Virus record (IMG/VR): IMGVR_UViG_3300044957_001622
Span: 1 to 23,049 of that record
Reading direction: 5' to 3' (one strand)
From: a virus
DNA length: 23,049 nt
The translations under genes and the position numbers were made by a program. Below, one piece after another: positions 12,609 to 22,612 of the stretch. A model generated the notes under the pieces. That model saw only the letters and a program-made list of their open reading frames with translations, had not been told where the DNA came from and did not search any database. The first letter of the stretch is position 1. Each line of letters begins with the position of its first letter.

Positions 12609-13051
12609 GCCGAACCGGTCCCGGCCAGCGCGGCCTGCGCCTGCCTGACCTCCTCGGCCAGGTTGTCCAGCGACGTCGCCAACTCCGCGCGCTCGCCGGC
12701 GTCGAGGTGGCCGTCCGCCATGGCTGCACGGCATCGGGCCATCGCGGCGGCGCCGCCTTCGACGATGTCGGCCAGTTCGTCGCGCAGCTCGCCGGCGACG
12801 ACGGCGGACGGCCGGGCCTCGGCCATGGCGCCGGTGATGATCGGCTCGCCGCAGTAAGCCTCGAGGCACAGCACGATGTCGATCGGCAGGAAGTCGGGCG
12901 CGGTCGGCACCTGACACCGGCTCAGGTGCGGGACGGAGTACGGGCGGCACGTCTCGCGGCAAGCGCGCGACGCCTCCTCAAGCCCGCCGCAGCGATCGAT
13001 CAGCTGTCGGGTCTTCAGCTTCAGCCAGCGCTTCGGATCGGCGGCGCTCAT
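12605..13051 (-). CDS. CII-like phage regulator
   Basis: 148 residues from ATG 13051. The N-terminal third has a helix-turn-helix arrangement (WLKLKTRQLIDRCGGLEEAS, then RPYSVPHLSRCQ, then FLPIDIVLCLEAYCG), which I recognise as typical of alphaproteobacterial phage proteins annotated as CII- or Cro-type regulators. The C-terminal half is a long acidic helix region (AAMARCRAAMADGHLDAGER, then ATSLDNLAEEVRQAQAAL), suitable for oligomerisation. It is the first gene after the Cro-like gene, the position of lambda cII. Its ATG overlaps the stop of the Cro-like frame (ATGA), so its translation may depend on that frame being read through. Confidence 0.65.
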   Translation of the reverse strand: MSAADPKRWLKLKTRQLIDRCGGLEEASRACRETCRPYSVPHLSRCQVPTAPDFLPIDIVLCLEAYCGEPIITGAMAEARPSAVVAGELRDELADIVEGGAAAMARCRAAMADGHLDAGERAELATSLDNLAEEVRQAQAALAGTGSA

Positions 13052-13794
13052 GCGGCGGCTCCGGTTCGGGCTAGTCTGTCGGCATGCTCCGAATCGCACT
13101 CGCCCTGGGCGTCGCTCTCATCGCCGGCCCGGCTTTGGCCGACCCATGCACTCGCATTCCCGATCGCGGTGCGATGCCGCCCGAACTGCGAACGGGCCAG
13201 ACCTTCAGCGGCCCCGTCGTCTACGTCGGCGACGGCGACAGCCTCTGCGTCGAGACGATCGGCGGGATCGGCGGCGCGGGCTGGGTGGAGGTTCGGCTGG
13301 CCGATTTCCGGGCGAACGAGCTCAACGCGCCCGGTGGCCGCGAGGCCCGACAGGCGTTGATTGATCTGGCCCTCCGACGCCGCGTGATCTGCATTGCCCG
13401 CAACCGAACCTACGACCGGGTCGCGGCCGTCTGCCGCCTCGACGGGATCGGCCTTGGAGATCTGCTGCGTCGACGTGGCGTCGCTGAAGGCGGGCGCTGA
13501 CGTTCCCGAGATGTTCGCGCCGTCTTTCTCGGCGCCATCGCTGAACGGCTCTGGCTTGATGGCGCCATCACTTCCGAGGGCTTCGCCATGTTCAGCCAGC
13601 TCACTGCAGACCGACCCGGCGCGGACCTTGCCGCCGCTCCAGCGTTCGATCCGAAGCGCCAGCCGCAGAGAAGCCTCGCGGCGGCCGTTCTCAATCTCGC
13701 TCAGCCAGCTACCGCTGGATGCACTGAGCCCGAGGGCGAGAGCAGTTTGTTCGAGTGTGAGGCCTTGTTCGGCCCTGAAATCGGCGAGAAGCAT
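13048..13794 (-). CDS. Cro-like HTH regulator in a long ORF that reads antisense through a nuclease gene
   Basis: The first 60-90 codons encode an XRE/Cro-type helix-turn-helix (LADFRAEQGLTLEQTALALG, then GSWLSEIENGRREASLRLAL). The ATG at 13794 lies next to an operator and a TTGACG -35 box, divergent from the CI-like gene, so this half is convincing. The frame then has no stop codon until 13048, giving 248 residues. From about residue 98 the sequence is the exact codon-by-codon reverse complement of the nuclease gene and looks like low-complexity antisense product (many A, D, G, R). The stop nevertheless overlaps the CII-like start as ATGA. Either the long tail is really made, or a frameshift or early end has been lost. 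The HTH half is firm; the tail is doubtful. Confidence 0.6.
   Translation of the reverse strand: MLLADFRAEQGLTLEQTALALGLSASSGSWLSEIENGRREASLRLALRIERWSGGKVRAGSVCSELAEHGEALGSDGAIKPEPFSDGAEKDGANISGTSAPAFSDATSTQQISKADPVEAADGRDPVVGSVAGNADHAASEGQINQRLSGLAATGRVELVRPEIGQPNLHPARAADPADRLDAEAVAVADVDDGAAEGLARSQFGRHRTAIGNASAWVGQSRAGDESDAQGECDSEHADRLARTGAAA
13084..13500 (+). CDS. secreted thermonuclease-like protein (staphylococcal nuclease fold)
   Basis: 138 residues. A signal peptide is visible (LRIALALGVALIAGPALA, cut before DPC). The nuclease core has VVYVGDGDSL (calcium-binding aspartates, about 50 and 52), VRLADFRANE (equivalents of Arg35 and Glu43 at about 71 and 79) and YDRVAAVCRLDG (Arg87 equivalent at about 112). 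The residue equivalent to Asp40 is an arginine, so activity may be weak or altered. It runs against all surrounding early genes and lies wholly inside the antisense of the Cro-like ORF. No strong ribosome site is seen. A periplasmic or secreted nuclease on a temperate phage would be a lysogenic-conversion gene, perhaps degrading incoming DNA. Confidence 0.75.
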   Translation: MLRIALALGVALIAGPALADPCTRIPDRGAMPPELRTGQTFSGPVVYVGDGDSLCVETIGGIGGAGWVEVRLADFRANELNAPGGREARQALIDLALRRRVICIARNRTYDRVAAVCRLDGIGLGDLLRRRGVAEGGR

Positions 13795-13799
13795 GCCTC

Positions 13800-13828
13800 A
13801 GTTTCACCGCAGGTGAAACTTTCGTCAA
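13800..13828 (-). promoter_or_regulatory. promoter and operator of the Cro-like (early) operon
   Basis: A TTGACG -35 box (minus strand, 13828-13823) is followed after 17 bases by GAAACT (13805-13800). The spacer and -10 are filled by a perfect dyad with arms AGTTTCACC (13800-13808) and GGTGAAACT (13812-13820) around a 3-base centre. A repressor on this dyad would directly block polymerase. The ATG lies only a few bases downstream, so the transcript would be leaderless or nearly so if this -10 is right. Confidence 0.6.
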
Positions 13829-14216: not shown

Positions 14217-14807
14217 TCACTGCTTGATGGCTCGGGTCGGACGGCACTGGAAGGTGGACACCTGACCGGCGCCGCCCATGAAGCCCATGTTGAGCTCGCG
14301 GAATGACTTCGACCCGTTGGCGGGGACGATTTCGAACAGCGTCTGCGTCACGCGACCCACGCGAGTGCCGCTGTTGCCGAACAGCTCGCATTCGATCCGC
14401 ACATCCTTGACGGCGAAGTCGGCCGCGTTGGCGAGCGAGCCGGAGATGATCAGAACGGTGTCGAAGCCCCCCTTCTCACCAGACGCCTCGAGCGTAAGGG
14501 CGCTCGCCGGATCTCGCTCATAACGCCGGCGCTCCTCGGCAAGCCGCTCGGCCTCGATCTGCTCTGCCGTCTTCTCGGGCGCTGCAGGCCGGGCGGCCGT
14601 CTCCGTTCCGGATGGGGCCGGCGCGCCCTGTCCCAGCACCCCGATCAAAACCCAGAGCGCCATCCAGCCCAAGCTGACGATGCGAGCCAGGGTCGAATGA
14701 CCCCGCCGCAGCGTGAACCACGCAAAGACGATCGGAAGGAAGAATATCCCGATACCCAACAGGATGCTGACTTTGCGCGTGGGCGCGGCGGGTTGCTCGA
14801 ACGTCAT
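14217..14807 (-). CDS. two-pass membrane protein with C-terminal soluble domain; possible exclusion protein
   Basis: 196 residues. Two N-terminal transmembrane helices (about 12-33, VSILLGIGIFFLPIVFAWFTL; about 41-59, RIVSLGWMALWVLIGVLGQ) with a short basic loop between them. Residues about 60-100 are a charged linker (EKTAEQIEAERLAEERRRYE). The C-terminal part looks like a small beta sandwich of the FxLYD type (VKDVRIECELFGNSGTRVG, then TQTLFEIVPANGSKSF). A GGAGGGA-type site precedes the ATG. It stands just beside the repressor gene, converging on it, a place where lysogenic-conversion or superinfection-exclusion genes are common; that role is inferred. Confidence 0.7.
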   Translation of the reverse strand: MTFEQPAAPTRKVSILLGIGIFFLPIVFAWFTLRRGHSTLARIVSLGWMALWVLIGVLGQGAPAPSGTETAARPAAPEKTAEQIEAERLAEERRRYERDPASALTLEASGEKGGFDTVLIISGSLANAADFAVKDVRIECELFGNSGTRVGRVTQTLFEIVPANGSKSFRELNMGFMGGAGQVSTFQCRPTRAIKQ

Positions 14808-14872
14808 TCAGTCCCTCCCCGGACTTTGATTGCGACCCGACGATAGCGACCACGCACGCTCCGCGCGAGTCT

Positions 14873-15115
14873 CTAGGCGGCGTCTTCGATCGGGACGTCG
14901 CCTGTCGCACACAACAACTCGACCTCGGTCCATTGATCCCCGCTGGCAGACGTATCGATCCGGAAGAAGGCCACGCCCGAAACCCGGTGAGCCATTTCGC
15001 GTCCGATCCGAAACGCGCGGTCCTCGTCTGACCCGCAGTCGATCAGATCCTGCGGCTGGAGCGTGCCCGCTCGGCGCTGGAAGGCCAGGACATGGAAGGT
15101 CGCGTCGTCGGTCAT
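14873..15115 (-). CDS. small unknown protein
   Basis: 80 residues from ATG 15115; a TTG three codons upstream is possible. The composition suggests alternating strands and helices (TFHVLAFQRRAG, DRAFRIGREMAHRVSGVAFFRI, WTEVELLCATGD). It reads like small phage or plasmid proteins with a two-layer fold, but I recognise no family. It is separated from the membrane-protein gene by 65 bases and could share its transcript. Its upstream region is the 15125-15365 control region, so it may be driven in the direction opposite to the plus-strand operon. Confidence 0.55.
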   Translation of the reverse strand: MTDDATFHVLAFQRRAGTLQPQDLIDCGSDEDRAFRIGREMAHRVSGVAFFRIDTSASGDQWTEVELLCATGDVPIEDAA

Positions 15116-15172
15116 GATCGCCAATCGTTAACGGGCTGACTGATTCCCGGCGCGTGAACCAGAGTCCATAGC

Positions 15173-15197
15173 CGATACGTCAAATTTGGTCGTATCG
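15173..15197. promoter_or_regulatory. 7-bp inverted repeat upstream of the plus-strand operon
   Basis: CGATACG (15173-15179) and CGTATCG (15191-15197) flank an AT-rich 11-base centre. It differs from the TTTCAC dyads nearby, so it could be the site of a second regulator acting between the minus-strand 15115 gene and the plus-strand operon. Confidence 0.35.
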
Positions 15198-15204
15198 ACT
15201 AGAC

Positions 15205-15261
15205 AAGTTCACTTGTGGTGAAAATATGCGTTGACGACTTCGTTTCACTTGTGGTGAAACT
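15205..15261 (+). promoter_or_regulatory. tandem operators and promoter of the plus-strand (ParB-clamp-integrase) operon
   Basis: Two dyads related to the switch operators: 15205-15225 (core TTCAC-N5-GTGAA around 15215) and 15241-15261 (GTTTCAC-N5-GTGAAACT around 15251), centres 36 bases apart. A TTGACG -35 box at 15231-15236 lies between them and the second dyad occupies the spacer and -10 area, as at the Cro-like promoter. A second weaker promoter (TAGACA at 15200, AATATG at 15223) may overlap the first dyad. One repressor probably controls both operons. Confidence 0.6.
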
Positions 15262-15267
15262 CTGGTC

Positions 15268-15343
15268 GTCCGCACCGGAGGGGCAAGCCCCCGACCCTGC
15301 CGACGCCCGACCGGTCACCCTCCCGACCGGCTCCGGTGCGGAC
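15268..15343 (+). promoter_or_regulatory. branched stem-loop in the leader of the plus-strand operon
   Basis: A perfect 13-bp inverted repeat, GTCCGCACCGGAG (15268-15280) with its complement at 15331-15343, closes a 50-base interior. Inside are a small hairpin directly stacked on it (GGG, CAAG, CCC at 15281-15290) and a 6-bp hairpin (CCGGTC 15311-15316 with GACCGG 15325-15330). It ends 22 bases before the first ORF and begins 7 bases after the operator, so it lies in the 5' leader of the transcript. There is no U-run, so it is not a simple terminator. Confidence 0.5.
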
Positions 15344-15365
15344 ACCCGCCAACCCGGAGTGTCCG

Positions 15366-15464
15366 ATGCAACAGACCCCCTCCCGCCGCAGCCTGATCGG
15401 TGAAGCCGTCGCCTTCGCGATGATGCTCGCGCCGCTGGCCGCCCTGATCGGCTGGGCCGGCTGA
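15366..15464 (+). CDS. tiny membrane protein, first gene of the plus-strand operon
   Basis: 32 residues. A basic start (QQTPSRRSLIGE) is followed by one hydrophobic helix (AVAFAMMLAPLAALIGWAG) reaching the C-terminus. GGAG lies 6 bases before the ATG, and the stop overlaps the next start as TGATG. The translation signals and coupling support a real gene. Function unknown; single-helix mini-proteins in phage early operons often modulate membrane or host enzymes. Confidence 0.55.
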   Translation: MQQTPSRRSLIGEAVAFAMMLAPLAALIGWAG

Positions 15465-15598
15465 TGCGCCCGGCTCTCCCTGACTTCCGCCCCATCGTCG
15501 AATGGCTCGACGCCCGCCCACGGCGGACCGGTCGCGCCACGACGATCATCCTGCTCGCCATGCTCGCCGCTCTCGCGGTCGCGGCGGCCCTGAACTGA
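15464..15598 (+). CDS. small membrane protein, second gene of the plus-strand operon
   Basis: 44 residues, start overlapping the previous stop (TGATG). The N-terminal half is polar with RPALPDFRPIVEWLDARPRR, then one transmembrane helix (TIILLAMLAALAVAAAL) runs to the end. Its basic residues before the helix predict an N-in orientation. It ends 11 bases before the ParB-like start. No family recognised. It could be a partner of the 32-residue protein upstream. Confidence 0.55.
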   Translation: MRPALPDFRPIVEWLDARPRRTGRATTIILLAMLAALAVAAALN

Positions 15599-15609
15599 TC
15601 GGAGACCGC

Positions 15610-17547
15610 ATGTCCCAGCTTTCCATCCTCGCCGTCCAGAACGCGCCGCTGCTGCGGGCGATCAAGACCAACCCGCTCGCACAGAAGGCGGACCTCGCCA
15701 CCGCGACCGGCAAGGACCGCTCGAACCTTAATCGCAGCATCGCCGCACTCGTCGAGGCCGGTCTGGTGGTGGAGTCGGACAGCGGCTCCCGCAACCTCAC
15801 CGATGACGGCGAGGCCCAGCTGGCGGCCGTCGACCGGGCTGAAGGCAAACCCGGTTTGCCGGGCGGCGACCGCTGGCCGCAACAGGTCGGCGACATTCGC
15901 CTGCTGAACCACGCGCAAATCTTCCCTGACCACGCCAACGCGCGAGTCGACTGGGACAGCGACGAGGCCCGCGAGGAACTGGACGCTCTGCGCGCCGACA
16001 TCGTCCAGTATGGACTGCTGCAGAACCTCGTCGTCCGGGCAGACGACTTTGGCGACACCCTGAAGGTCCTGAACGACGCCGGCGAGACCATGCCGGTCTT
16101 CACCCTAGTCGGTGGCGAGCGTCGCTGGCGCGCCATCGGGCTGGCGATTGCCGAAGACGACTGGCCGCGCGACCGCCCCATCCCGTGCCGCGTGGTCGAG
16201 CTCGACACGCTAGGGCAGCGGCTCGCCGCCCTGTCGGAAAACCTTCAGCGTCGGAACCTGAACCCGCTGGAGAAGGCGAAGGCCTTTGACGGCTTGGCCA
16301 AGGCCTTCGCCGAGCAGGGCATCGAGGACGACAAGATCAACCGTGAGATCGCGGACCGCGTCGGCGTCACGATCGAGCACGTCCAGCAACATCGCAGCTT
16401 CCTCAAGCTCGACGAGGCGGACCAACAGCGCCTGACCCTGCCGAAGGATGACCCGCGCCGCATGTCGGTCCGCGAGGCCCGCCAGAAAGCCTCGAACAAG
16501 GAGGCCAGCAAGCCGCTCGATCTGACGCCGGCCGAACGGCTCCTGTTCGCCGAGCTGACGCACCGCGCGCGGTCGATCGCCAGCTACAGCTTCAATGATT
16601 TCGAGGTCGGCCCGGACGCCGCCTATGACCCGACGCTCGCTCTGCTGATCGAGAAGACCATCGTCAGCGACGTCCATCGCGTCGGCTACGGCGAGCTGAC
16701 CGGCCGCTTCGCCCTGCGCCTGCGTTGGGACGGTCACCCGGAGCGCTACTTCGCGTGGTTCGACAAGGGCAAGGGCAAGGCCCTCGACGTCGGCCTCGAA
16801 GAGGAACAGGCCGCGTCCGGCCAGACCCGCGCCGAGGGCGCGACCTACGTCACCCCGTGGCTAACCGGCCCGTTCGAGCTCGACGAACAGGGCAAGGGCA
16901 TGGTCGCCGAGAAGGATGCCCGGGATGCCGAGAACGCCGAACGCGCGCGCCTGTCGCAGGAAGAGCGCGAGGCGCTGGCCAAGAAGTACGCCGACGCCCG
17001 CCAGAAGCACCTGCAGCTGCTGAACGCGGCGGCCGACGCGCCACCGGCCGAGGTCGGCGAGGCGACGATCGAGGCGGCCGAGGTGATCGACGCGCCCCTG
17101 CCGTGGCGTCTGAATCCGGACGGTATGGTCGTCGCCGCCAACGGCAAGGCCGTCCAACGCTTCGGCAACTACTACGGCTCGCCTGGCGACAACGACATGA
17201 CCGTCGCGCAGATCGTCGTGGTCGCGGTCAACTCGGCGGCCGGCCTTCCGACCCCGCCCGTCGAATTCAAGGGCCAGGCGGTCGAGGGCATGGACGAGGA
17301 AGAGTTCCTCGACGTCATGGCGCAGAACCTCGAGAGCCGCGCCGAGGCCGACGATGAAGCGGAGTTCGAGGTCTATCAGGGCCAGGCGTCCGAGATCCTC
17401 GCCACGTTCCTCGAGGACAATGGCGTCGCCTACGGCGAGGACGGCTTCGACTGGACCGACGAGGGCGCCGTCGCCCTGATCGACGGCCACATGTCCGACG
17501 CCGGCGGGGAACCCGCCCAAGGCGAAGCCGACAGGGCCGCCGCCTGA
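15610..17547 (+). CDS. ParB-like protein with N-terminal winged helix and long C-terminal extension
   Basis: 645 residues. GGAG lies 5 bases before the ATG; the frame is open upstream but without signals. Residues about 12-75 form a MarR-like winged helix (KADLATATGKDRSNLNRSIA, then LVEAGLVVESDSGSRNL). The ParB N-terminal domain follows (about 95-225): ALRADIVQYGLLQNLVV, the CTP-site motif GGERRWRA (about 168-175) and ENLQRRNLNPLEKAKA (about 210-225). The HTH is about 240-265 (REIADRVGVTIEHVQQHRSF). Residues from about 330 are an unassigned extension with a charged helix (ERARLSQEEREALAKKYADA). No ParA is present here, so it may act in transcription, silencing or origin handling rather than in standard partition. 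Confidence 0.88.
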   Translation: MSQLSILAVQNAPLLRAIKTNPLAQKADLATATGKDRSNLNRSIAALVEAGLVVESDSGSRNLTDDGEAQLAAVDRAEGKPGLPGGDRWPQQVGDIRLLNHAQIFPDHANARVDWDSDEAREELDALRADIVQYGLLQNLVVRADDFGDTLKVLNDAGETMPVFTLVGGERRWRAIGLAIAEDDWPRDRPIPCRVVELDTLGQRLAALSENLQRRNLNPLEKAKAFDGLAKAFAEQGIEDDKINREIADRVGVTIEHVQQHRSFLKLDEADQQRLTLPKDDPRRMSVREARQKASNKEASKPLDLTPAERLLFAELTHRARSIASYSFNDFEVGPDAAYDPTLALLIEKTIVSDVHRVGYGELTGRFALRLRWDGHPERYFAWFDKGKGKALDVGLEEEQAASGQTRAEGATYVTPWLTGPFELDEQGKGMVAEKDARDAENAERARLSQEEREALAKKYADARQKHLQLLNAAADAPPAEVGEATIEAAEVIDAPLPWRLNPDGMVVAANGKAVQRFGNYYGSPGDNDMTVAQIVVVAVNSAAGLPTPPVEFKGQAVEGMDEEEFLDVMAQNLESRAEADDEAEFEVYQGQASEILATFLEDNGVAYGEDGFDWTDEGAVALIDGHMSDAGGEPAQGEADRAAA

Positions 17548-17645
17548 TGCGCCCGCCTTGGGTCGAAGCCGCCGCCCTTCTCGGCGCCCACGGCTTCGAC
17601 AGCACCCCGCCCAAACCCGAACACCCCTTCGCAAGGAGCCTTCGC

Positions 17646-17966
17646 ATGGCCGACTTCGCCCCCTTCGCCTTCGCCACGCGGCTTGAGCCGACGTGCAAAC
17701 CCCGCGCCTTCACCAGCGCGACCGCCCTCGCCACCCACATCGAGGACCTGCGCCAGGGTCGCGCGATCGAGCTGGTCGAGGTCGAGGACATCGAGATCCC
17801 GGGCCAACCCGGCCTCTACCTCGGCGTCCAGATCTTCACCCTCGACGCCGGCAACGGCCGCGACGAATGCCTCGGCTACGCATGGCTGGGCGGCAAGGGC
17901 CGCGACCGCCTCGAGCCGGCCCTGCGCGCGGTCCGCCGCGACGTCGGCCGAAAGGCGGTGGCGTGA
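17646..17966 (+). CDS. small unknown phage protein
   Basis: 106 residues from ATG 17646, which has AAGGAG 7 bases upstream. An in-frame ATG at 17547 that overlaps the ParB stop (TGATG) would add 33 residues and cannot be excluded. The visible region has a helix (FTSATALATHIEDLRQGRAI), two strands (ELVEVEDIEIP, YLGVQIFTLDAG) and a C-terminal helix (RLEPALRAVRRDVGRK). No family recognised. Its stop overlaps the next start as TGATG. Confidence 0.62.
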   Translation: MADFAPFAFATRLEPTCKPRAFTSATALATHIEDLRQGRAIELVEVEDIEIPGQPGLYLGVQIFTLDAGNGRDECLGYAWLGGKGRDRLEPALRAVRRDVGRKAVA

Positions 17967-18307
17967 TGGCCGTTATCCCCTCGGCCCTCGATCTGACAGA
18001 CGCTGGCAACGTCGTGCAGGCCCGCCATGAGCTGCATCAGGCGATGGACTTCGGCGGGCAGGACAAGCGCGCCGCTTGGGCGGAAAAGTGGGGCGAAGCC
18101 GCCCTGGCCGCTGGCGAGAAGGCCTCGAACGAAGCGGGAGAATGGGACGGCTTCTCGGCCCCGGAGTCGCTCGAAGCCGCCGACAACCTCACCGACCAGC
18201 TGATTGCCGAGCTGGCGAAGGACAACCCCAACATCGAGAACTGCCGACGCCTCGCGAAGCGCGTCAGCGGCAAGCTCGACGACATGCTTGAGGCGATCGA
18301 GGAATGA
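17966..18307 (+). CDS. small acidic helical phage protein upstream of the clamp gene
   Basis: 113 residues; start overlaps the previous stop (TGATG) and the end overlaps the clamp start (ATGA). The sequence is helical and acidic (NVVQARHELHQAMDFG, then RAAWAEKWGEAALAAGEK, then a C-terminal ENCRRLAKRVSGKLDDMLEA). Translation appears coupled to the sliding clamp, so the two may be made in proportion. No known motif is visible, and I see no clear clamp-binding peptide. Confidence 0.62.
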   Translation: MAVIPSALDLTDAGNVVQARHELHQAMDFGGQDKRAAWAEKWGEAALAAGEKASNEAGEWDGFSAPESLEAADNLTDQLIAELAKDNPNIENCRRLAKRVSGKLDDMLEAIEE

Positions 18308-19434
18308 TCATCATCGTTGAACAGGCGGTTCTCGCCCGCGTCACCGCGCGCATCGCCAGCGTGGCGACAAAGCGCGGCACTATCCCCATCCTGCACAACG
18401 TCCTGATCGACGCCCGCGACGGCGCGGTCTGGATGACGGCCACCGACCTCGACATGGAAATTCGCGAACGGTTCGACGCAACGGTCGATCGCGCAGGGCA
18501 GATCACGGTCAGCGCCACGGCCTTGGCCGAGATCGCGCGCAACGCTCCGGCCGGCGCCGAGGTGGTCATCCAGTGGGAAGACGGCGCCGACCCCCGGGCG
18601 CTGATCAAGTTCGGCCGGTCCAAGTATCGCCTGCCGGTCCTGCCGGCCGGCGACTTCCCTATTCGGGCCGACCTGACCTCGGCGAGCGAGATGACTCTGT
18701 CGGCCGCCGAGCTGCTGACCCTCCTCGATCACGTCCACTTCGCTCAGTCGTCGGAAGAGACCCGCTACTACCTGAACGGAACCTACTTCCACACGATCGC
18801 CGATGAGGGTCAGGCAGTGTTTCGGGTCGTCGCGACGGACGGCCATCGCCTCTGCATCGATCAGCGCCCGGTCCCGGCCGCGACGTCCATCCCGGGCGTC
18901 ATCGTGCCGCGCGCCGCGATTGGAGAGTTTCGGCGGGTCCTGTCGGGTGCGAAGTCCGACGTGCAGCTGAAGGTCAATCAGACCGGCGTCTCCCTCGAGA
19001 TCGATGACACCTACCTGATCACCAAGACGGTTGACGGCTCCTACCCGGATTACGAGCGGGTCCGGCCGAGGGAGTGGGACCGCGAGATCGTTATCGACCG
19101 CGCTGTGCTGCATGCCGCCGTCAAACGCGTGTCTCTCATCAGTGCCGAAAAGGCCCGGTCGGTGAAGCTGTCGATCGAGGAAGAGGTGCTCACGCTCACG
19201 GTCCGGAACATGGAGACCGGAATGGCGGATGAGCAGATCGAGGTGAACGGCGAAGGCCCCCACTTCGAGACCGGCTTCAACGCCAAGTATCTGCTGGACG
19301 TCCTCGAGCAGACCGACGCCGACCAGATGCTGTTTCGCGTCAGCGACGGCGGCTCGCCGGCGCGCCTCGACCCGCATCCCGGGACAAAGGGCGCGGACGC
19401 GATCGTTAACGTCATCATGCCGCTGAGGGTGTGA
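18304..19434 (+). CDS. dnaN: DNA polymerase III beta subunit (sliding clamp), phage-encoded
   Basis: 376 residues, the full length of bacterial DnaN. Conserved features: AVLARVTARIASVATKRGTI, then PILHNVLIDA near the N-terminus; VWMTATDLDMEIRER; the FPIRADL region (about 118-124); YYLNGTYFH; FRVVATDGHRLCI; DGSYPDYERVRP; and the C-terminal IVNVIMPLRV, which matches the MPMRL-type end that binds polymerase partners. All three clamp domains appear intact. The protein forms the ring that tethers polymerase to DNA. A phage copy may take over or adjust the host replisome. It starts within the previous stop (ATGA) and is followed by an unknown gene (TGATG). Confidence 0.93.
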   Translation: MIIIVEQAVLARVTARIASVATKRGTIPILHNVLIDARDGAVWMTATDLDMEIRERFDATVDRAGQITVSATALAEIARNAPAGAEVVIQWEDGADPRALIKFGRSKYRLPVLPAGDFPIRADLTSASEMTLSAAELLTLLDHVHFAQSSEETRYYLNGTYFHTIADEGQAVFRVVATDGHRLCIDQRPVPAATSIPGVIVPRAAIGEFRRVLSGAKSDVQLKVNQTGVSLEIDDTYLITKTVDGSYPDYERVRPREWDREIVIDRAVLHAAVKRVSLISAEKARSVKLSIEEEVLTLTVRNMETGMADEQIEVNGEGPHFETGFNAKYLLDVLEQTDADQMLFRVSDGGSPARLDPHPGTKGADAIVNVIMPLRV

Positions 19435-19946
19435 TGAACCTTCGCACCCTCAAGAAGCTGTCCAAGCGAGCCGCGCCCTACCTGCCTCTGCTAGGCGACG
19501 ACCGACAGCAGTTTCCCGCTGAGCGCTTCGACAACTACACCGGCCTCGTCATCACCGCTCGAAAGCACTTCGAGCGCGGGCGGTCCGTGCACGACGAACT
19601 GTACGGCGAGCGGATGATCAAGACGCCAGCCAGGGACGGTCGCGGTTGGGTCTACGCCAAACCGCCCTGCCATCCGCGCAAGGGCACGATCATGGTCGGC
19701 GCGCTCGAGGGCTACTACGAGCCAGAATGGGATGAGGAGACCGCCTACGAGGCCCTTCTGGACATCCTCTACGTCGAGTTCACCGATTGGTCCGAGGACG
19801 GCCCCTGCGCCTTGATGCGGGACCTGTCGACCGTGACCGGCGTTTTCCGGGCGGCCAACGATCTGGCTCGCCAACGGGAGGCAGAACGGCTGCGCCAGGC
19901 CGAGACGCGCGCCGCTGCGCGAGCCACCAGCGAAGCCAGGGGCTGA
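19434..19946 (+). CDS. unknown phage protein downstream of the clamp gene
   Basis: 170 residues from ATG 19434 (TGATG with the clamp stop; a GTG one codon earlier is possible). The N-terminus is basic (LRTLKKLSKRAAPYLPLL), followed by NYTGLVITARKHFERGR, a region with WVYAKPPCHPRKGTIMVGAL, an acidic stretch (YEPEWDEETAYEALLDILYV) and a C-terminal coiled-coil-like helix (ANDLARQREAERLRQAE). No family recognised. It closes the coupled part of the operon; a 208-base gap follows. Confidence 0.65.
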   Translation: MNLRTLKKLSKRAAPYLPLLGDDRQQFPAERFDNYTGLVITARKHFERGRSVHDELYGERMIKTPARDGRGWVYAKPPCHPRKGTIMVGALEGYYEPEWDEETAYEALLDILYVEFTDWSEDGPCALMRDLSTVTGVFRAANDLARQREAERLRQAETRAAARATSEARG

Positions 19947-20154
19947 GGATGCGGCAGGCCTGCAGCGCCAGCCACGCGAGGTCGTGGTCGAAGGAAAAGG
20001 GGTCGGTCATCTCGACAGCTCCGGTTGCAACGCAGCCGAAGTTTCGGGCCATCCCGGGACCGGCAACGCGGTCTCCTAAGAACCGTCACGACCTCGCTTC
20101 CTCAACGCACGGCTCTTGTCAGGGCCGCACCGCACAACAGACGGAGGCCTAGCC
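19947..20154. other. non-coding gap before the excisionase-like gene
   Basis: No plus-strand gene is supported. On the minus strand a short frame begins at 20010 with ATG and a GGAG-type site and reads MTDPFSFDHDLAWLALQACR, continuing antisense into the preceding gene. It is possible but unproven. No clear terminator or operator copy is visible, and the region probably carries transcription into xis and int. Confidence 0.4.
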
Positions 20155-20511
20155 ATGGGCGCCGCCGAACGCCTCCCGATGATCGGCCCGGTGACGGAGG
20201 CGCGCATTCAGGCCGCCTTCGCCGAGGCCGCCGTCATCACCGCCGCCGCCGCCTGCAAGGTGATCGGCTGCGACCCCAAGACCCTGCGCGAGATGACCGA
20301 CGCCGGCATCATCCGGGCCGTCCGCGTCGGCGCCGGAAAGTCGCGCGGCTACACCGAGGGTGACATCCGCGCCTACCTGACCGAGAGTGCCGCGCCATGT
20401 CCGTCTACAAGCCCGCGAAAAGCCCCTTCTTCCAATACGACTTCCAGATCAAAGGTCGTCGATTTCACGGCTCGACGGGCGTTGAAACGCGCCGAGCGGC
20501 CGAAGAAGTAG
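20155..20511 (+). CDS. excisionase-like helix-turn-helix protein
   Basis: 118 residues from ATG 20155, with GGAGG 7 bases upstream; a longer open frame has no signal. The central region is a MerR/Xis-type winged helix: AVITAAAACKVIGCDPKTLR, then MTDAGIIRAVRVGAGKSRGY and TEGDIRAYLTE. Residues after about 80 are Ser/Pro/Lys-rich and are encoded in the 115 bases that overlap the start of the integrase gene in another frame, so the tail may be unconstrained. Position and fold match phage excisionases that direct integrase towards excision. Confidence 0.72.
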   Translation: MGAAERLPMIGPVTEARIQAAFAEAAVITAAAACKVIGCDPKTLREMTDAGIIRAVRVGAGKSRGYTEGDIRAYLTESAAPCPSTSPRKAPSSNTTSRSKVVDFTARRALKRAERPKK

Positions 20512-21575
20512 AGCGCCGCATCCGGCGTCAGGCCGCCCTGGGCGAGCTGGACGACGCCAGCCAGATGACCCTCGATCAGGCCGCCGCCCGCTGGTGGGAC
20601 GAGCACGGCTGCACCCTGAAGGGCGGCGATCGACTCGAGTCCCGCATCGAGCGGGTCGTCACCTTGATTGGCCCCTCGACCCCGATCCGCGAGATCACCA
20701 CCAAGGTCATCGCCCGCGCGATCGAGCGCCGGCGAGGCCAGGTCCGGGTCCACTCGAAAGCCGAGGACGCCCGCCAGTATCTCCCGAGCGACTCGACTGT
20801 GAACCGGGACATGATCGACAGCCTCCGGCCGATCCTGAACCGCGCCCGGCGGACATGGGAAGCCAAGCTGCCCGAGATCGATTGGGCCGCCCTGCGTCGG
20901 GCCGAACCTAAGCCGAAGCCCACGGAGTTCGCCGGCGACGACTACGAGCGGATGCTGGCCGAGGTCCGGCCGCACTGGCACCCGATGATCGACTTCGCTC
21001 GCAAGTACGGCGTCCGCCTCGCCGAGCTCTTCTTCAGCCTCGATGACCTCGACGTCTCAGATCCGGAGAACGCCCGGGTGAAGCTCCGCGAGCGCAAGGG
21101 CGACGACGACCACGTGATCCCGCTGCTGCCCGACGATGCCGCGCTGATGGCCGCGCGCCTCGGCCGAGCGCGCGCCGCGAAGCTGACCACGGTGTGGTTC
21201 CGCGAGAAGCGGCTGAAAGGCCCAGGCGGCAAGCTGAAGCTGATGCCCCTGACCTACGGCGGGCTGGAGATCGCCGTCCGGCGCGCCATGGTCCGCTCCG
21301 GGCTGAAGGAGGCCAAGGGCATGCGGGGCATCCACGCTGCCCGCCACCACGCGGCCATGCAGACCCTCCGCAAGACCAAGAACCTGCGCGTCGCCCAGCG
21401 CCTGCTAGGCCACGCCGACATCAAGTCGACCATGGTCTACGCCCACGCGATCGAGGACGACGTCCGCAACGCCCTTGCGGAGGTTCACCGGAATAGTCCC
21501 GAACCGGCCGGGACAGAGGCCGAAATTGCCGAAGAGAGTCAGTCGGCTAAGGGGTCGGGATCGGGCCGTTCATAA
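20397..21575 (+). CDS. int: tyrosine recombinase / phage integrase
   Basis: 392 residues. The N-terminus (YKPAKSPFFQYDFQIKGRR) is the typical arm-binding domain start; a core-binding SAM-like domain covers about 60-160. The catalytic domain shows Arg about 207 (KYGVRLAELF), Lys about 234 (RERKGDDDHVIPL), HxxR at about 313-316 (GIHAARHH), His about 339 (LLGHADI) and the nucleophile Tyr about 348 (KSTMVYAHA). All catalytic positions are present. The start lies inside the excisionase-like gene and the stop lies inside the tRNA-derived attachment core, so the gene ends exactly at its own site. It mediates site-specific insertion into a tRNA-Met gene. Confidence 0.93.
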   Translation: MSVYKPAKSPFFQYDFQIKGRRFHGSTGVETRRAAEEVERRIRRQAALGELDDASQMTLDQAAARWWDEHGCTLKGGDRLESRIERVVTLIGPSTPIREITTKVIARAIERRRGQVRVHSKAEDARQYLPSDSTVNRDMIDSLRPILNRARRTWEAKLPEIDWAALRRAEPKPKPTEFAGDDYERMLAEVRPHWHPMIDFARKYGVRLAELFFSLDDLDVSDPENARVKLRERKGDDDHVIPLLPDDAALMAARLGRARAAKLTTVWFREKRLKGPGGKLKLMPLTYGGLEIAVRRAMVRSGLKEAKGMRGIHAARHHAAMQTLRKTKNLRVAQRLLGHADIKSTMVYAHAIEDDVRNALAEVHRNSPEPAGTEAEIAEESQSAKGSGSGRS

Positions 21576-21613
21576 CCCACAGGTCGGCAGTTCGATCCTG
21601 CCTCCAGCCACCA
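21569..21613 (+). other. attachment core: 3' half of a tRNA-Met(CAU) gene
   Basis: Anticodon loop TTCATAA (21569-21575, anticodon CAT), the 3' side of the anticodon stem (CCCAC), variable region, T arm GGCAG/TTCGATC/CTGCC (21586-21602), acceptor 3' strand TCCAGCC, discriminator A and encoded CCA (21611-21613). The 5' side of the anticodon stem does not pair, and no D arm or 5' acceptor is present, so this is only the segment that phages copy to restore the tRNA after integration. The integrase stop codon TAA lies in the anticodon loop. Confidence 0.8.
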
Positions 21614-21699
21614 CTTTCCCTAAACTTCTAATACTTAACGGGCACAGTCCGCCGAGCGTCTCTCATCCGGGCCGGGCCATTTGGGAACGTCCGGGGGGT

Positions 21700-21731
21700 T
21701 CCGGGACTGCGATCCCCGGAATAGTCCCGGA
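21700..21731. repeat. 9-bp inverted repeat and 14-bp word repeated on both sides of the attachment core
   Basis: TCCGGGACT (21700-21708) pairs with AGTCCCGGA (21723-21731). The 14-base word CCGGAATAGTCCCG at 21716-21729 also occurs at 21488-21501 inside the integrase gene, in the same orientation, with the tRNA fragment between the two. They are candidate arm-type integrase sites. Confidence 0.45.
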
Positions 21732-21804
21732 CGGTGTTCCGCATTCGTTCGGTTGAGAACCCATGATTCTGCGGGTCGTATTCTCCGGAATGGAGGTCGC
21801 CGCG

Positions 21805-22612
21805 ATGGCAGAGCAGCAGTCTGCGGAAAACGGTTCGATGTGGTACGAACAGGATTGGCCGGCATACTTGTATCGGTACATTCCGCTGCGCAGCCAGATC
21901 GACCGCGACCGAGCCGAAGCCGTCGTAACGGGAGGGCGTCTGCGTCTCTCAAGCCCCGCGTGTTTGAACGACCCGTTTGACTGCCTGCCAATCGGCGAGG
22001 TTCCAGAGAGCCGCGTTGGCAGGGAACTCCTTTTGCGAGGAGCTATGAAGCGAGTAGAGGGTAGAGGGCCCACGGGCGTTGCTCAGGGTCGAATCCGACA
22101 CTTCATATACTCGCGCAAAGCGATGAAGGAGGAGCTGGAAGCATCCTTCCGTTCCACGGCGGAGGCCGGCGTCGCCTGCTTCTCAGAAAACTCTGACACC
22201 GTGATCATGTGGAGCCACTATGCAGACAACCATCGCGGGCGGCTCTCCGGTTTCGGATGGATCGCTGGCCGATCACCGAGCTGCCACTTCTTCTGAAGGT
22301 CGACTATTCGCCCCAGAGGCCAGTGATCAGGCTTCGGAATCACTTCGGGGACAACGACGACCTGATTCCGGGAATGACGCGGAAAGCAGACTTTTGGGCC
22401 TATGAACCGAATGACGCCTTATTGTGACGAATGGCGCAGGATACTGTCCGACTCCGACGGCGCGCCTGGACCGGGTCATTATGGGCGCAGCCATGCCGGC
22501 TGACCAGCGCAGTATGATTACGTCTTGGGCAGGCGAACGAGCATCAGCACTCGAAGTCTTGCGTGCTGAGATTTGTCGGCGGGAATTTAGGCTCTGTGCT
22601 GACGCAGCTTGA
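21805..22612 (+). pseudogene. decayed DUF2971-type gene with three frame changes
   Basis: The ATG at 21805 has GGAGG 8 bases upstream. The first frame gives YLYRYIPLRSQIDRDRAEAV, RLRLSSPACLNDPFDCLP and GVACFSENSDTVIMWSHYAD, the hallmark words of DUF2971. After NHRG (about 22238) the family pattern continues in another frame (LRFRMDRWP, LLLKVDYSPQRP, DFWAYEPN), then in the first frame again from 22426 (DEWRRILSDSDG), and finally in the third frame (LDRVIMGAAMP to RREFRLCADAA, stop 22612). The whole family length is present but no single frame covers it. It is a broken gene, or the read has several indels. DUF2971 proteins are accessory genes of unknown biochemical role, often found in mobile and defence loci. 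Confidence 0.75.

Follow-up and report, generated by a model that had tools for sequence, protein, structure and literature searches.

The 3′ strand of the stem that closes a branched leader RNA, at the head of the ParB-clamp-integrase operon of a phage, is complementary to the sequence beside the Shine–Dalgarno (SD) sequence of the first gene. This complementarity, absent from an earlier note on the same DNA, is the main point of this report. We consider it fairly likely that the leader is the 5′-terminal part of the early mRNA and switches translation in cis between two states, a function that we infer solely from sequence and computed energies. The window, that is, the whole stretch of DNA analyzed, is a 23-kb viral record (IMG/VR IMGVR_UViG_3300044957_001622; 23,049 nucleotides), and its relevant features are listed in Table 1.

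Table 1. Features of the leader and its operon in the window
Feature	Position	Strand	Remarks
Operator copy 1 (probable), TTCACTTGTGGTGAA	15208–15222	+	direct repeat, inverted repeat
Operator copy 2 (probable)	15244–15258	+	between −35 box and P1; direct repeat
−35 box (putative), TTGACG	15231–15236	+	37 nt from start of box to first base of P1
P1, 5′ strand, GTCCGCACCGGAG	15268–15280	+	fold, inverted repeat, −35 spacing, covariation
P2 hairpin	15281–15308	+	MFE pairs 15281–15284/15305–15308; C-rich loop; weak, variable
P3 hairpin, CCGGTC-ACCCTCCC-GACCGG	15311–15330	+	15311–15316/15325–15330; 8-nt loop; firm
P1, 3′ strand, CTCCGGTGCGGAC	15331–15343	+	final bases common to P1 and SD hairpin; fold, inverted repeat
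Competing SD hairpin (predicted)	15339–15365	+	CGGACAC 15339–15345/GTGTCCG 15359–15365; inner CCC/GG extension over SD
SD of ORF1, GGAG	15356–15359	+	in all 16 Brevundimonas-type leaders; 6–10 nt before ATG in 13
ORF1	15366–15464	+	small hydrophobic protein of 32 aa, opens the operon; ATG at 15366; from translation
ORF2	15464–15598	+	44-aa hydrophobic small protein; from translation
ParB-like protein	15610–17547	+	winged HTH at N-terminus; marker gene for finding relatives
Sliding clamp (DNA polymerase III beta-like)	18304–19434	+	
Tyrosine integrase	20397–21575	+	

Fold and Covariation of the Leader

The earlier note had described a perfect 13-bp stem enclosing two hairpins within 76 bases, and the inverted repeat is indeed present at 15268–15343. 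The predicted structure (MFE −43.1 kcal/mol, z −3.94) is a three-way junction in which P1 closes P2 and P3. None of 200 dinucleotide shuffles is equally stable; the reverse strand folds less stably (z −2.38), at a level that 4 of 200 shuffles reach. P2 is the less certain element in the window, where a local GGGG-CAAG-CCCC hairpin is an alternative to the MFE pairing. The part enclosed by P1 shows little conservation in the leader alignment (A8). Its unpaired letters are 58% C and 8% G, which makes a binding tract for Rho or S1 conceivable; in a C-rich fold, however, the letters left unpaired tend to be C in any case. The absence of a U-run, by which the note had set the element apart from a standard terminator, agrees with a terminator scan of 14800–15700 that returned no match. 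Rfam gave no match at gathering score across the window and, with 4227 families compared to 15180–15420, none at E ≤ 5. A literature search limited to CC-licensed PMC papers found nothing on this leader.

Covariation in P1 was examined in a sequence-only MAFFT alignment of 14 distinct leaders. In this alignment 97% of the P1 cells are paired, and covariation lies above that of 500 of 500 shuffles and of every slid control; three of the five unpaired cells fall at the innermost pair 12. Double changes occur at three of 12 pairs. Pair 8 is C-G in seven leaders, G-C in three, U-G in two, and G-U and U-A in one each, a distribution that requires six changes on the best ParB tree. Judged by the well-supported branches of this tree, G-C at pair 8 arose at least twice or was lost, a count that recombination could alter. 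Most P1 pairs are uninformative because their sequence does not vary in this main set (8 of 12 pairs invariant), and their constancy may reflect double use with the SD hairpin. Adding two divergent relatives (L118 and L120) raises the pairs with double changes to 5 of 13, among them U-A to C-G and A-U to G-C replacements at pairs that are invariant in the main set. The note had named homologous leaders without compensatory changes as the outcome that would count against it; compensatory changes are found in P1. The structure itself is real. Together with the conserved spacing to the −35 box described below, the compensatory changes support the note's suggestion of a leader RNA with a branched fold that may be a riboregulator.

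Complementarity to the Shine–Dalgarno Region

The six bases GGACAC (15340–15345), made up of the 3′ end of P1 and the next two bases, are complementary to GUGUCC (15359–15364), which overlaps the SD of ORF1. In 12 of the 14 distinct leaders, the stretch from GGAG to ATG contains a perfect 6-nt complement of GGACNN. Across 1046 windows of the same leaders such complements occur 22 times, 21 of them at this offset or at one of the two preceding offsets. L046 and L050 carry GGACGC/GCGUCC where the others have GGACAC/GUGUCC, which amounts to an A-U to G-C double change. The SD hairpin of L040/L109 contains an A·C mismatch, and L049 is missing the usual site; there, CGGACG can pair with UGUCCG over the start codon. 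Helix length is unremarkable in nine of 13 leaders (shuffle rank above 0.1, counting any helix through GGAC, with G-U pairs, over 60 nt), so that the signal is one of position, not of length.

We then compared the energies of the SD-hairpin state and the full-P1 state at 30 °C for 16 leaders, L118 and L120 included, using shuffled linker letters as a control. The mean gap is 1.5 kcal/mol, versus 7.4 kcal/mol with shuffled linkers. For 13 of the 16 leaders the gap falls in the lowest 8% of shuffles; for L049 (rank 0.54), L118 (0.31) and L120 (0.20) it is no better than in the shuffles. By computation, the leader thus has what defines a bistable leader: two mutually exclusive structures, close in energy, that expose the SD to different degrees. 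Several leaders have GGAG partly paired in either state, and a shorter SD hairpin is also possible when P1 is closed. P1 may therefore weaken, and not abolish, pairing of the SD, and the switch may be graded instead of all-or-none. Stepwise folding of the window completes P1 by transcript nucleotide 78; the second strand of the SD hairpin comes later, at nucleotides 92–97.

A pseudoknot between the P3 loop and the SD was also considered and rejected, since its duplex energies equal those obtained after shuffling the loops (13 leaders, mean z −0.2). UCC is present in nine of 13 P3 loops, which is weakly unusual (0.014) and perhaps a matter of composition; this count does not include L050, which lacks a P3 of the usual form.

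Operators, Promoter and Presumed Start Site

As the earlier note had it, the leader follows the operator/promoter and precedes the first small ORF, with operators and TTGACG upstream and the ATG at 15366 downstream. The repeats at 15208–15258 are probably the operator of a repressor, phage ParB being the alternative candidate binder. Their half-sites, GTTTCAC...GTGAAAC with 5 bp between, resemble chromosomal parS half-sites. Allowing up to three mismatches, the window contains three operator copies versus 0.08 expected. The third, TTCACCTGCGGTGAA (13803–13817, minus strand, two mismatches), is located directly upstream of an HTH_31 gene (13048–13794, minus strand), and this position suggests that the gene product is the repressor or the partner of the repressor.

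No full promoter match came out of a sigma-70 scan, and the −10 region is not recognizable; the promoter is deduced from the TTGAC box and its conserved spacing to P1. In 13 of the 16 leaders this box precedes P1 by 35–37 nt; L044, L047 and L049 have none. Given this spacing and the usual position of a −35 box, transcription would begin at the first bases of P1, so that the mRNA probably opens with P1 (start at or within ~2 nt of P1). A start downstream of 15343, which the note would have counted against its proposal, is not what this spacing indicates: the predicted start is at the foot of P1.

A separate 17-bp palindrome, GRCRAACC(N)GGTTYGYC, is a candidate parS-like site of the phage ParB. 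It occurs in the window at 254, 11724 and 15844, and one to four times in 19 of 21 ParB-phage loci (near-copies among them), frequently within ParB or close to where ORF1 begins. In 216,690 bases we counted 42 matches, versus 0.25 per mononucleotide-shuffled pass. Further along the operon, the last base of the ORF1 stop codon is the first base of ORF2, and a full-length DNA polymerase III beta clamp adjoins ParB and the integrase in this temperate phage genome.

Relatives of the Leader and Exchange of Its Flanks

In 16 records from Brevundimonas prophages and viral contigs, among which 14 sequences are distinct, the ParB operon is headed by the same leader. This set includes the window, L108, L109 and L144; L109 and L040 have the same core, and the cores of L048 and L047 are nearly the same. 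Most relatives came from a search with an alignment of four ParB proteins, which returned 10 viral and 43 genome loci. A terminase probe led to L009 (ParB 57% identical over its N-terminal part, 72% DNA match on the leader), and a pattern left open at one pair, on both sides, led to L037 and L038. A looser pattern scan hit 20 contigs, nine with real leaders and 11 with chance matches in other sequence; read by eye, the open P1 position pairs in nine of nine real leaders versus one of nine distinct chance sequences. Single-protein ParB probes detected no relatives among viral or genome contigs. The phages and plasmids collections yielded distant ParB cores only, and a DNA search of the phages gave no match to the leader. 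The operator sequence as a probe was a dead end, its five viral contigs having neither the ParB operon nor the leader near the match.

Among the close ParB loci (L039–L052, E 2e-68 or better) 12 of 14 have the leader upstream. The other two, L045 and L051, are one lineage of ParB phages that has lost the leader core. L051 (4200–4275) retains GGAGCGTCCGCGCC before the ATG, and by eye its CGCTCCG (4200) could pair with CGGAGCG over the SD, which would be another way of hiding it. The named hosts are Brevundimonas (L049, L050, L052), that of L050 being Brevundimonas aurantiaca DSM 4731. An RNA model matches five of 131 Brevundimonas genomes, in each case beside ParB, and ParB (E ≤ 1e-40) is present in seven of the 131; the family-wide search of 390 genomes matched the same five. 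In the divergent Caulobacteraceae relatives L118 and L120 the architecture upstream of ParB is kept and the letters are different. Both escaped the genome model searches and were recognized with a script that looked for the architecture, and by eye; the counts that speak to absence are therefore lower bounds. Besides these two, 13 of the 16 distant ParB loci scanned were blank, and L117 has a different, short leader. Two sets of matches were dismissed: that in L129 lies inside coding-looking sequence and scores at the level of shuffled controls, and the weak model matches L155–L159 look like chance, with no ParB nearby.

Operators vary between these phages. L040 and L109 are 100% identical in the core and 96% at the start of ORF1, versus 60% in the 70 bases upstream; the corresponding values for L047 and L048 are 99, 98 and 60%. 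The breakpoint of the operator swap is in both pairs the foot of P1, with leader and ORF1 nearly identical. On the other side, ORF1 belongs to one of two families (6 and 10 of 18 leaders) that lack mutual similarity at E < 0.01, and to neither in L118 and L120; ORF1 of the window is similar to that of L044 and L046. L039 and L044 have ORF1 of different families, yet their leader cores are 82% shared. The same core thus occurs with differing operators and differing ORF1 families, and so has been kept across exchanges on both sides. Since it stays constant as operators and first gene are exchanged, its role seems to concern the entire transcript.

Proposed Mechanism and Alternatives

In the proposed switch, state A would be the three-way junction of P2 and P3 closed by P1. 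In state B, the last 4–5 bases of the 3′ strand of P1 and the next two would pair with GNGUCC beside the SD, and the longer hairpin would bury GGAG. Because transcription presumably starts at the foot of P1, P1 would fold first and give a translatable mRNA. If this foot were opened, or left unstabilized, the SD hairpin would capture the shared strand, which would close ORF1 to translation and, through translational coupling, the genes downstream as well. Candidate triggers are a ligand or protein on P2/P3, trimming of the 5′ end, an altered start site, or temperature. It is a tentative and rather unlikely extension that the leader represents an undescribed, phage-borne class of sensory RNA, in which P1-P2-P3, placed at the very 5′ end of the early transcript, would bind a metabolite or protein that serves as a signal from host or phage and, through the shared strand, gate the translation of the replication and integration operon of a derepressed prophage. 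Should the switch be true, it would add a second gate, after the repressor, at the start of the lytic program of temperate phages of Caulobacterales, and whatever sets the balance of the folds would be a signal that informs the lysis–lysogeny decision in these hosts. The leader offers a defined pair of competing strands.

Several simpler roles have to be weighed against this proposal. Stem-loops of the ompA type at the 5′ end protect mRNA against 5′-end-dependent decay, and a P1 that begins at the first transcribed base could shield the early mRNA in the same way without any switching. P1 is very stable and begins at the predicted start in 13 of 13 leaders with a TTGAC box, as expected of such a stabilizer. 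Its conserved sequence is not expected, nor are the SD complement with its A-U to G-C double change and the near-equal energies of the two states, and we judge this explanation improbable. We give still less credence to a role of P1 as a DNA element, in which a dimeric protein (repressor, ParB or a recombination protein) would bind the inverted repeat and its folding as RNA would be a matter of chance. The fixed spacing to the −35 box would suit it, as would the exchange of operator modules at the 5′ edge of the leader (L040/L109, L047/L048), and both half-sites would have to covary. On DNA, however, the U-G and G-U cells at P1 pairs 8, 11 and 12 are mismatched half-sites; the conserved, one-sided SD complement and the fixed orientation to a start codon point to RNA, and the palindrome described above is a better candidate for the ParB site.

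The earlier note had named a put-like antitermination RNA as one of three possibilities; its action on RNA polymerase would keep the enzyme from pausing or terminating within the early operon. The position downstream of the early operator/promoter and the length of ~76 nt recall putL (PMC9378689), and conservation of the leader through exchanges of operators and ORF1 would fit such a role. This part of the note does not hold up well: put RNA has a different topology, as detailed below, and the SD complement is left unexplained. Intrinsic terminators are not in excess downstream either (three found versus 4.4 expected on both strands of 15180–22200); none stands out there as one for a put-like leader to overcome. 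We rate this role as poorly as the DNA element. Least probable of all, in our estimate, is a processed, trans-acting antisense RNA of the C4 type that would silence the early mRNA of an infecting phage. In its favor, the leader is a compact RNA of a phage, it lies directly ahead of what would be its target, and most P3 loops contain UCC. Nevertheless, C4 (RF01695) is an Rfam family and the leader matches none up to E = 5, the P3 loop pairs with the SD no better than shuffled loops do, and little leader RNA is expected in a lysogen because the promoter lies under the operators. The free small RNA that the note had also suggested finds no support in this analysis. The two-state switch remains the reading that we prefer.

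Comparison with Known Systems

C4 antisense RNA acts on a downstream ribosome-binding site. The leader is likewise a phage RNA near the early operon, but its pairing is in cis and through a strand of P1, not through loops, and it gives no match to the RF01695 covariance model; C4 is named in PMC2864571.

The put RNAs of HK022 bring about terminator read-through that depends on the β′ zinc-binding domain. According to PMC9378689, put RNA is ~70 nt long and has two stem-loops in tandem that no further stem encloses. Like putL, a branched RNA of ~70 nt with which a phage early transcript begins, our leader would sit just downstream of an early promoter (deduced from TTGAC in 13 of 16 leaders). 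It differs in that P1 encloses P2 and P3, and competition for the SD is not reported for put in the sections of PMC9378689 consulted.

With lambda cIII the leader shares alternative folds of a phage early mRNA in which the ribosome-binding site is open to different degrees. Alternative structures of cIII mRNA were reportedly described by Altuvia et al. in 1989, a study cited in PMC11182007. In our leader it would be a 5′ three-way junction that supplies the competing strand, and phage, gene and sequence are unrelated.

In the design of translational riboswitches, the closing P1 of a multibranched domain shares its 3′ strand with a hairpin that sequesters the SD. The leader differs from these in having no known aptamer (Rfam negative) and a fast-evolving interior with no invariant core outside P1, and a small-molecule pocket is therefore not indicated. 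It resembles them in the layout of the expression platform: in 12 of 14 distinct leaders a strand of P1 doubles as part of the SD hairpin.
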